Assembly: GCA_014382375.1 (NCBI GenBank)
Contig: JACNJU010000089.1
Location: forward strand, 1-45,131
Length of the DNA stretch: 45,131 nucleotides
Direction: 5' to 3'
Source: Rhodospirillaceae bacterium
GTDB lineage: Bacteria; Pseudomonadota; Alphaproteobacteria; Rhodospirillales; JABHCV01
Position 1 is the first letter of the stretch. Each line of letters opens with the position of its first letter. This document shows, in pieces, positions 9,171 through 18,025 of the stretch. The notes under the pieces were generated by a model. That model was not told the DNA's origin. It saw nothing but the letters and a program-made list of their open reading frames with translations, and ran no database searches. The position numbers were made by a program, and so were the translations under genes.

Positions 9171-9254
9171 CTTGCTCTTACAGGCCTTTTACGGTTCGTC
9201 CAAAAATTCCAAACACAAATGCGCCAGTGCGCGAAACTCGCGGACTGACGGCGC

Positions 9255-9279
9255 CCCATGAGGCGAAATAAATCATGGG
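9255..9279 (-). other. hairpin in the ffh 5' leader
   Basis: Inverted repeat CCCATGA (9255-9261) / TCATGGG (9273-9279) lies about 85-115 nt before the ffh start, inside the predicted 5' untranslated RNA. No U-run follows on the minus strand. Function unknown. Confidence 0.4.
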
Positions 9280-15050: not shown

Positions 15051-15171
15051 TCTCTAACACCTTCCCCAGCCAAAATCCTGACACGCTAGCGCCAGCAAAC
15101 ACGCTTTATCCCAGATGCATATCAGTTTAGCAGGAAAAAGAAATAAATAAAATCAACGCAATGAAAGAACG

Positions 15172-15396
15172 TCAGACCTTGATGTCCAGGTAATATCCGC
15201 GCGGGACATCAGCCCGTGGCGGATTGACGTTTGCCAGCACCTTATCAAGGCGACCCAGAGCTCGGCGTTCATGAGGCGTCTCATTAGGATTGCTAACGGC
15301 TGCACGATTGCGGACCTGTTCAGCGGCGGTATAGCCCTTCGGCCGCTGACTGGTCAGCGCAATGGCGCGGGCGGGAATGCTCGATATCTGGCTCAT
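15172..15396 (-). CDS. small conserved-looking protein, function unknown
   Basis: 74 aa from the ATG at 15396 (MSQISSIPARAIALTSQ); an in-frame ATG at 15408 adds four residues and lacks a ribosome site. It is basic and Arg/Pro-rich, with no signal peptide or membrane helix, and ends PRGYYLDIKV. I do not recognise a domain. It is downstream of the 66-residue gene on the same strand; the structured RNA region at 15507-15613 lies between them and could control its expression. Confidence 0.6.
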   Translation of the reverse strand: MSQISSIPARAIALTSQRPKGYTAAEQVRNRAAVSNPNETPHERRALGRLDKVLANVNPPRADVPRGYYLDIKV

Positions 15397-15506
15397 GGTC
15401 TCTACCATGACCGTAAATGGTTAACGGAATCTGTAACCCGGTAAAGATTCTTTTTTAACCGAAAATTCAGGCACGACCAAAGGCCCGAAGCCGGTGTCGG
15501 GTCTCT

Positions 15507-15532
15507 AAAAAGCAGCCCCCCACTGGGACCGC
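15507..15532 (-). terminator. intrinsic terminator inside a switchable leader
   Basis: On the minus strand GCGGUCCC (15532 to 15525), a 5-nt loop AGUGG, and GGGGCUGC (15519 to 15512) form an 8-bp stem with two wobble pairs, followed directly by UUUUU (15511 to 15507). This is a textbook intrinsic terminator. Its 5' arm is also perfectly complementary to GGGACCGCA at 15603 to 15595, which would form an antiterminator. Confidence 0.75.
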
Positions 15533-15613
15533 AAAACCCTTAGCCATCCCTTCACCCGACTCTAAAGCAGGCAACACGGCGCGGCCAAAGAACCTGCGGT
15601 CCCTCAAGGGATC
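15507..15613 (-). ncRNA. candidate attenuator/riboswitch or ~110-nt small RNA
   Basis: Minus-strand RNA with a 9-bp perfect long-range stem, GGGACCGCA (15603 to 15595) with UGCGGUCCC (15533 to 15525). Enclosed is a second 8-bp stem, CUUUGGCC (15590 to 15583) with GGCUAAGG (15545 to 15538), that uses G-U pairs only on this strand, and a 37-nt apical loop. The 3' arm of the outer stem also forms the terminator at 15507-15532, so the two folds exclude each other. A short UCCC-UUGA-GGGA hairpin at 15600-15611 could sequester the antiterminator arm. It matches no riboswitch class I can recall. It may control the 74-residue gene or be a free small RNA. Confidence 0.55.
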
Positions 15614-15623
15614 AAGCGATTAA

Positions 15624-15655
15624 ATTCTTTCTCACTCCTAGAGGATGAGAAAAAT
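15624..15655. terminator. hairpin immediately after the 66-residue gene
   Basis: Near-perfect inverted repeat: TTTCTCA / TGAGAAA arms extended by AATT on both sides, with an inner TCCT-AG-AGGA stem. It starts at the stop codon of the minus-strand gene at 15657. The outer A/T pairs could act as a U-tract in either direction. Confidence 0.55.
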
Positions 15656-15656
15656 T

Positions 15657-15857
15657 CTAGGCGTCAGTGTTGATATGCTGACCCAGATTCGAATCCGAAC
15701 CCACGCCAGAAACATCAACGTTCTGTCCCGCTTGAACCGGGGGTGCTTGTGCTTGGGATAAGACTGCTGCCGCTACCTTGTCCTGTCGGAGTGTCCTTTT
15801 CAGGGTCTCGACGGCAAGATTAAAGTTAACCGGCGGCGCAGCCGGTATGATTGTCAT
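15657..15857 (-). CDS. small protein resembling putative motility-associated proteins
   Basis: 66 aa with a strong ribosome site (AAGGAGGTCAG) before the ATG. The centre, NLAVETLKRTLRQDKVAAAVLSQAQ, is amphipathic and resembles the short putative motility protein family (YjfB-like; SVAVLKKxxDxxxxxAxxLL). The C-terminus is Gly/Ser/Asp-rich. No signal peptide. A stem-loop follows directly. The family link is a weak impression; the gene itself is credible because of the ribosome site. Confidence 0.6.
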   Translation of the reverse strand: MTIIPAAPPVNFNLAVETLKRTLRQDKVAAAVLSQAQAPPVQAGQNVDVSGVGSDSNLGQHINTDA

Positions 15858-16016
15858 TCTGACCTCCTTTTTCCACTTCTATGTCATTGCCCAACATTCA
15901 GTTGAGCCCGTAGCGTTCTGCCACGAGCGAGCAGTATGGCATAAATAACTACAAAAGGGAATCGGATTGTCAATTCCGCCACAAAATCGACTGCACAGCC
16001 AAACGAGTCTTTAATT

Positions 16017-16048
16017 TTGACGCCAACTCACTGATTCTGTTATATAAT
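16017..16048 (+). promoter_or_regulatory. sigma-70-type promoter for the chemoreceptor-like gene
   Basis: TTGACG at 16017-16022, then an 18-nt spacer to TATATA (16041-16046), overlapping TATAAT at 16043-16048. This is a strong match. Transcription would start near 16054, about 35 nt before the ATG at 16091. It lies in the 233-bp gap 15858-16090; I see nothing else in that gap beyond the ribosome site of the divergent small gene. Confidence 0.7.
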
Positions 16049-16090
16049 AATCCCTTAGGCAAAAACCTTAAGGCAAACTGGGAGCACACT

Positions 16091-18025
16091 ATGGCTATTG
16101 AGCCATTTTCAAGCGATCAAACGCAAGGCCAATCCGGGCCCGAATCTACCGACTTTCAGGATCGCACTTTTATGGGCGGTATTGGCCTGTCAACGCGCTC
16201 TTCTCTGTTTGCTATGCTCGGTATCGCTGTGCTGATCTGTGGCGGTTTTGGACTTTATTATGCCGACAAGGAACTGGCAAAAGCCGATGCGATGCTTAGC
16301 CGAGCAACCGACCTCAACACTTTTGCCGCCGCCATCGAACGGGATGTCTGGCGCATCCGGGCCGAACAGGGAGAGTTGTCGAAAAAATCCTCCGACGCCG
16401 CCCGCGCCACCACCCAGGAGCATCTCGCACTGGCCGCTGCTCTTGGCCAAAAACTCGATGAACTTTATCAGCGCCCCGGGGCCGCCCCGATGGGCGAACA
16501 CGTTTCAACGCTGCGCGAGGCGGTTGCCCAATACGGCGAGCAGTATGAAAAGTCCATGCAACAGGCGGCAACCCCTGGGCCTGATTTAACCAGCCTGGAA
16601 GCTGATATACGCAGGGCCATCCGCAACATCGGCAAAACCCTGACCACGCTCAATTCTCTCAGCATCAATGAGACGATGATGGCGATCAGGGCGGCAACCA
16701 CGGAATTTGTCGAAGGCGGACTTAGCCGTGACCTGATTGTCATTGAAGGCCACCAAAAGGAATTCTACCGATTGCTGATTTCGATTCCCATGCCCGAAGA
16801 AACCAAGAGCGCCTTACAGCTTGGAATTAATGACTATAACAACGCCCTCACCGCATACGCCAAGGTCAAGCTGGTTGCCAATAATACGCGTGATCGTCTT
16901 GACGAAATCATTTCCTACATGACCCCCAGCGTTGATGCCATCACCGGCTATGCCGGAGGTAATTTTGTCGAAGCCAAAGCCGGGCGTGCCGCGCTTCGTC
17001 AACAGTATCGCACCTTGATTGCCGCTGGCGGCGCGGGCGCGGTCATGCTGATGCTGTTATTCGGCCTGGCCATGTTGCGATCCATATCCGGGCCCGTTTC
17101 CGCCGCCGCCAAGGCGGCGAAAAGTCTCAGGCGCGGTGATACGGATATTGCCGTCTGGGGATTGGCTAACGAGGATGAGACCGGCGACATCGCCCGCGCC
17201 TTCTGGGCTTTAAAAGGAAGCCTGATCGAAGCCAAAAAACTTGGCGAGGAAATGGATAAAATCAGGAGCGATGCCGAACGTGGTCGTGCCGCCAGCGCCG
17301 AAACAGAATGGTTGCGCCGTGACCTGGAGTCCATGAAGGCCGAGGCCGACAAGGGCAAGGAGGCGCTTGCCGAGGTCGCCCTGCTGCGCAAGGTCATCGA
17401 CGCCACTGCCGACACCATCAGCGAGAAACAGATCGCCAAAGACAACGAAGCACCACCTGCCCCTGCCCCAGAAGCGGCGAGCGATATGTCGCTGGACAGT
17501 ATTTCTTCGATCAGCAGACAGGTTGCACGTTCATCCGAAAATGTCACCGCCGCTGCCGACGAGGCCGAACGGACCGGCACCCTGATTAGAAACCTGTCGG
17601 ACGCATCGGGTAAAGTTGATGCTATCGAAAGCCTGATCGCCTTGATTGGCGAGCAATCGGATATGCTGGTGATCAACGCCCCGCCACAAAGTCCCGATAC
17701 CAATCTTATTATCCTGAACGGCGACGCTCGCACCAACGGCGCCGAAAATTTTGATGCCATCGCTCAGCGTTTCGACGCCATTCGCGCCGCCGCCAGTAAA
17801 GCCAACTGGGCGGTTCGTGATATTGGCAACCTGATTAAGGACTCGCGAGATGTCGCCCTCGACATCGCCCGCCTGTCATCAAGCGAAGCGCTCGAAGTGA
17901 CAACTGACCTTTTGCAACAATCTGAATACCTGCGGGGAATGCTCGATAATCTGGTCAATAAAATGCAAGACCAGATCACAGATGTCCCGGAGCAAAAGAC
18001 CAGCGACGAAGATTTACTTTCTTAA
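16091..18025 (+). CDS. chemoreceptor-like membrane protein with a degenerate signalling tip
   Basis: 644 aa, GGGAG ribosome site. TM1 at about residues 37-57, a helical periplasmic domain of about 250 residues, TM2 at about 309-332, a HAMP domain (about 333-385), then a long coiled coil (about 386-460), a Pro/Ala linker and a C-terminal helical region. The last part aligns loosely with the methyl-accepting chemotaxis signalling hairpin: [12 protein letters not shown] stands where IAxQTNLLALNA is expected. It is followed by an 11-15 residue insertion ([15 protein letters not shown]), then [19 protein letters not shown] in place of the conserved ARAGExGxGFAVVAxEVR. The usual CheA/CheW-binding tip is therefore not intact. 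It probably senses an extracytoplasmic cue but signals through something else, or has lost function. The 3' end overlaps that of pgk by 12 bp, tail to tail. Confidence 0.85.

Follow-up and report, generated by a model that had tools for sequence, protein, structure and literature searches.

A structured RNA 3′ of a small-protein gene in a Rhodospirillaceae bacterium, with a long hairpin and a terminator-like stem that share one arm

INTRODUCTION

The locus described here raises the question whether an RNA in which two stems compete for one arm is a switch for the gene that follows it or the structured end of the transcript of the gene that precedes it. Transcription attenuators and riboswitches with antiterminator/terminator pairs contain two mutually exclusive stems that have one arm in common. 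The same arrangement occurs on the minus strand of a 45,131-nucleotide stretch of DNA from a Rhodospirillaceae bacterium (the window), between two genes for small proteins of 66 and 74 residues. A preliminary description, made from the sequence alone, read it as a terminator/antiterminator switch in front of the 74-residue gene that belongs to no known riboswitch or leader class. The pairing, conservation and predicted folding of this RNA were analysed, together with the two flanking genes.

RESULTS AND DISCUSSION

The long hairpin and the alternative stem

The 66-residue gene (15657-15857, minus strand) is an open reading frame with an NFNLAVE motif and a GGAGG sequence just upstream. Directly 3′ of its stop codon a short hairpin is predicted (15621-15656), which shares 33 of its 36 bases with the sister species G001. 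Further 3′ on the same strand lies a long imperfect hairpin (15525-15603) composed of 11 pairs, a U-U mismatch, 10 pairs and smaller apical stems; the 11-pair outer stem is GGGACCGCAGG/UUUGCGGUCCC. The perfect 9-bp helix that had been described is present, with GGGACCGCA (15603-15595) pairing to TGCGGTCCC (15533-15525). Its 5′ arm (15595-15603), the presumed antiterminator arm, differs from the sister sequence at base 15603. The inner helix depends on G-U pairs that exist only in minus-strand RNA, as had been proposed: the hairpin has a calculated energy of -46.2 kcal/mol on the minus strand and -25.4 kcal/mol on the plus strand. A small hairpin said to mask the antiterminator arm can indeed form, but it is weak (-4.9 kcal/mol) and is not kept in the same form in G001, where folding gives another local hairpin able to cover part of that arm.

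The alternative stem (15512-15532, minus strand; eight pairs, loop of five) borrows the arm GCGGTCCC (15532-15525), which pairs with GGGGCTGC (15519-15512) and is followed by T5 (15511-15507). A pattern scan recovered the same site. Six of its eight pairs are GC and the stem runs directly into TTTTT, so that the window sequence has the form of an intrinsic terminator; the sister has TTTAAA at the position of the U5 tract (15507-15511). The site resembles an intrinsic (Rho-independent) terminator or 3′ UTR hairpin in its G+C-rich stem and U5, placed after a stop codon on the strand of the gene. It differs from such elements in that folding calculations assign one arm to a stronger upstream helix, and in that its U tract is not conserved in the sister.

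Conservation in the sister species

A 301-base query from the locus gave matches in five of 60 related genomes, the own genome included. The match in G001 spans the whole query at 82% identity; those in G003, G004 and G019 are short and lie inside query positions 247-301, immediately upstream of the 74-residue gene. When the alignment with G001 is divided into segments, which were chosen after it had been seen, the 5′ arm (15602-15583) is identical at 20 of 20 positions and the outer 3′ arm (15535-15525) at 11 of 11, the inner 3′ arm (15547-15536) at just 8 of 12 and the apex (15582-15552) at 17 of 31. The terminator 3′ arm plus U tract is identical at 11 of 13 positions, and all 16 bases of the terminator stem are the same, followed in the sister RNA by UUUAAA instead of U5. 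As background, four-fold degenerate sites in four neighbouring genes are identical at 403 of 578 positions.

The 28 substitutions are divided equally between 31 unpaired columns (14) and 78 paired columns (14). Among the 39 pairs of the window fold, 12 are changed in G001, of which five still pair and seven do not (one through a gap); just one changed pair is a two-sided compensation. Substitutions, gaps aside, break six pairs, compared with 10.7 expected at random (P 0.014), in a test that covers one species pair and takes its structure from one of the two sequences. The pairs of both competing stems are kept in G001 save for one base of the outer 9-bp helix. Because the arms are kept while the apex varies, selection probably acts on the hairpin in the two species with a clear copy.

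Search beyond the sister and comparison with chance

All six family genomes share the gene order, in which the 74-residue gene comes next after the 66-residue gene. The stretch between them varies: it is longer and holds several hairpins in G003, is A+T-rich in G002 and is short in G005. In G004, which represents another genus of the family (loci L018 and L047), a different long hairpin occupies the same place.

A covariance model (R1) was built from two sequences, those of the window and G001. It matched four of 294 genomes of the order at E≤0.1, strongly in the window genome and G001 and weakly in G097 (E 0.013) and G037 (E 0.084); these E-values are per genome, so chance matches are expected at that level, and strict filters can lose weak matches. 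The model also matched the wrong strand of its own locus (E 7e-4 in the sister, 0.0075 in the window), so that E-values near those figures carry little weight. The score of G003 was 14.1 bits (E 0.17), and its intergenic stretch holds GGTTCTTTAGCCG and GGCCAAGGGG, which resemble the inner arms. In a three-way alignment (A2), in which the placement of G003 is doubtful, seven of 40 pairs show a two-sided change and the covariation term is unfavourable (+0.45). The R1 search thus gave a clear long hairpin in two of the six family genomes and no clear match in the other four. Conservation, for which a covariance search had been suggested, was found in part: the arms are conserved in one sister, and wide conservation was not found (4/294 order genomes).

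Folding of the 126-nt minus-strand sequence gave a z-score of -2.8, equalled by two of 200 shuffles. Terminator-like sites number two in 951 bases, compared with 1.1 (sd 1.2) in shuffled sequence, and the terminator as such is therefore not beyond chance. The shared arm was judged with a looser definition of a terminator-like site (at least six pairs, four of them GC, and five T in eight). In about 156 kb of the own genome, comprising the window and six further stretches, one of 32 such sites, the present one, has a perfect 9-bp anti-arm within 100 nt upstream; the counts were none of 41 in the sister (six stretches, 120 kb) and one of 248 in shuffles. Under a stricter terminator definition the anti-arm accompanied one of three sites in the own genome, none of three in the sister and none of 17 in shuffles. 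A perfect 9-bp anti-arm beside a terminator-like site is uncommon. Taken alone the shared arm is moderate evidence, since it had been picked from the whole window. It is unlikely that the complementary segments are a chance set without any role: such a reading would suit a z-score of just -2.8, an element clear in two species only and the unlike intergenic sequence of the remaining four family genomes, but it sits poorly with a sister that keeps the arms and changes the apex, and with the result of the pair-retention test.

Predicted folding of the growing RNA

Growing chains were folded at equilibrium. Chains starting at 15660 or 15620 were taken at six lengths, all of which include the whole 3′ arm; at every length the probability of the long outer helix is at least 0.99 and that of the terminator stem 0.0. 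Chains that start at 15598 lack most of the outer 5′ arm, and in these the terminator stem appears with probabilities of 0.0, 0.0, 0.13, 0.64, 0.68 and 0.85. In G001 the terminator stem stays at 0.0 at all seven lengths folded. These probabilities, which describe equilibrium and not kinetics, indicate that the long hairpin is the default and that switching would need a factor holding the 5′ arm; the sequence points to no such factor. The long hairpin, forming first, may oppose the adjoining terminator, and termination at U5 may consequently be poor.

The 74-residue gene and its upstream box

The 74-residue gene, conserved and without an assigned function, extends from 15172 to 15396 on the minus strand. 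The conserved start codon is the ATG at 15396, and another in-frame ATG at 15408 is absent from G003, G004 and G005. A search of 297 order genomes found the gene in 124. Upstream of it lies GATTCCGTTAACCAT (15417-15431, minus strand), a CtrA-like box with a GANTC site and a putative promoter element of this gene. For Caulobacter, TTAACCAT has been reported to be a form of the CtrA site without a gap, and activating sites to lie near -35 (PMC6180460).

Among the best 30 loci of the 74-residue gene by score, which include the six family genomes and two apparently closely related loci (L027 and L039), 24 have an in-frame ATG that is preceded at 27-29 nt by a TTAAC box. The box lies at other distances in L034 and L037 and is lacking in L019, L020, L026 and L028, of which L020 is truncated where its contig ends. 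For each locus the script accepted the nearest ATG preceded by a box within 60 nt and is thus biased toward finding one; for a single 56-nt stretch the chance expectation of TTAAC is 4.5%. A GATTC sequence (a GANTC site) adjoins the box in the window, and a GANTC site does so in 11 of the 30 loci when counted by eye. The exact 15-mer occurs once in the whole genome, and with up to two mismatches it occurs at 13 places, compared with one for the reversed control. The conserved box and ATG place the promoter of the 74-residue gene most likely at about 15440-15400, after the hairpin, with promoter activity and CtrA binding both predicted from sequence. This arrangement suggests a very short leader and perhaps cell-cycle or motility control.

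The family of the 74-residue protein gave below-cut-off matches only in Pfam, and the protein gave one match in the PDB (E 0.61). A FlgM-like identity was considered and rejected, as the two matches of PF04316 in the own genome are both below threshold and both lie away from this gene. A C-terminus resembling DVPRG[YF]YL was seen in family members (L013-L042).

These data bear directly on the switch that had been proposed for the 74-residue gene. If it were a true transcription attenuator, the 66-residue transcript would either stop at U5 or read into the 74-residue gene, the outcome being set by a signal that either releases the shared arm or sequesters it. We regard this as improbable. The pairing is mutually exclusive, both stems are largely kept in the sister, and the terminator reaches 0.64-0.85 at the last three of the six lengths in chains lacking most of the 5′ arm. 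On the other side, the RNA lies after one gene and before the likely own promoter of the next, and not in a 5′ leader behind a promoter as in known attenuators: the box, conserved in 24 of 30 loci, is 3′ of the RNA and of the terminator. With the 5′ arm present the terminator stem is at 0.0, and the sister U tract reads TTTAAA. Holders of the gene do not generally share the structure (R1 matches in 4/294 genomes, the gene in 124/297), nor do they generally have the upstream gene (7/297); four of the six family genomes gave no clear match (G003 at E 0.17), and no Rfam family was matched. A read-through transcript from the preceding 66-residue gene is nonetheless conceivable.

Known RNA families and the 66-residue gene

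An Rfam covariance scan of the RNA gave no match at gathering score or at E≤1, which agrees with the earlier statement that no known riboswitch or leader is involved; in the sister, two sub-threshold matches at E≤1 both lay elsewhere. The RNA thus differs from attenuators and riboswitches also in lacking an Rfam match and wide conservation. As a minus-strand RNA structure outside Rfam, with arms conserved in the sister, the element itself was upheld. A repeated palindromic (REP-like) element was considered and rejected: there is one full copy, and six other matches cover 14-27 bases at E about 0.1 or weaker. Elsewhere in the window, 9214-9265 (minus strand) matches the ffh sRNA (RF01793) at 39.2 bits (gathering score 35).

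Relatives of the 66-residue gene are present in all six family genomes (alignment A1) and in seven of 297 order genomes, one of the seven being a weak match (E 0.0046) with an internal stop. No Pfam or NCBIfam match exceeded the cut-off, and Pfam gave below-cut-off matches only, so the motility-associated label once attached to this gene finds no family support in either database. The divergently transcribed gene at 16091-18025 (plus strand) encodes a 644-residue protein with a HAMP match below cut-off, possibly a signalling protein.

Four-fold sites of the 66-residue gene are identical to the sister at 32 of 35 positions, compared with 371 of 543 in three other tested genes, which suggests a constraint on the RNA beyond the protein; these sites could reflect a wider RNA function. 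Small RNAs made from mRNA 3′ ends are a known class, and the present element, recognised from sequence, resembles them in being structured and in lying where a small-protein mRNA would end. A small regulatory RNA with the long hairpin as its body, processed from the mRNA of the 66-residue gene or started just upstream, is accordingly conceivable, and we give it limited credence. The compact structure with conserved arms would fit, as would the raised identity that extends from the Shine-Dalgarno sequence through the gene (203 of 217 nucleotides), over its four-fold sites, to the hairpin after the stop codon (33 of 36). Against it, a scan for one promoter type found no sigma-70-like promoter in 15150-16100, and the element was not clearly detected beyond the sister.

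A structured 3′ end as the preferred reading

The most economical account, and our preferred one, is that a genus-level hairpin is located in the 3′ end of the mRNA of the 66-residue gene; we consider this fairly probable, its function being deduced from the sequence. The minus-strand transcript of that gene would end in a structured 3′ region, with the long imperfect hairpin (15603-15525) as its main feature. After the hairpin come a G-rich stretch and U5, which could take over its 3′ arm to form the short terminator-like stem. The hairpin most likely marks and protects the mRNA 3′ end, and some weak intrinsic termination may occur near 15507. The 74-residue gene would not be under its control and probably has its own promoter 3′ of the hairpin. 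Since the calculated fold favours the long hairpin and the U tract is poorly conserved, we infer that the two-way pairing is mostly a by-product of a strong arm adjoining a G-run and not a regulated switch. Counting against this account, the conservation comes from one species pair, the inner 3′ arm is identical at 8 of 12 positions and there is one two-sided compensation; the identity of all 16 terminator-stem bases in the sister also leaves room for regulated termination. A combined form, which we rate lowest of all, would make the 66-residue gene's transcript a dual-function mRNA with a genus-level 3′ regulator, whose long hairpin and terminator compete for one arm. Binding of a protein or antisense RNA to the 5′ arm would then switch termination on, and a stable regulatory RNA would be set free.

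CONCLUSIONS

As it stands, the hairpin adds modestly to the annotation as a real structured 3′ end, and the site is a reminder that shared-arm pairing alone makes no switch. The conserved small-protein family with a fixed spacing from box to start codon across much of the order is a candidate member of the CtrA regulon, and this CtrA-linked family is possibly the more useful of the two results.
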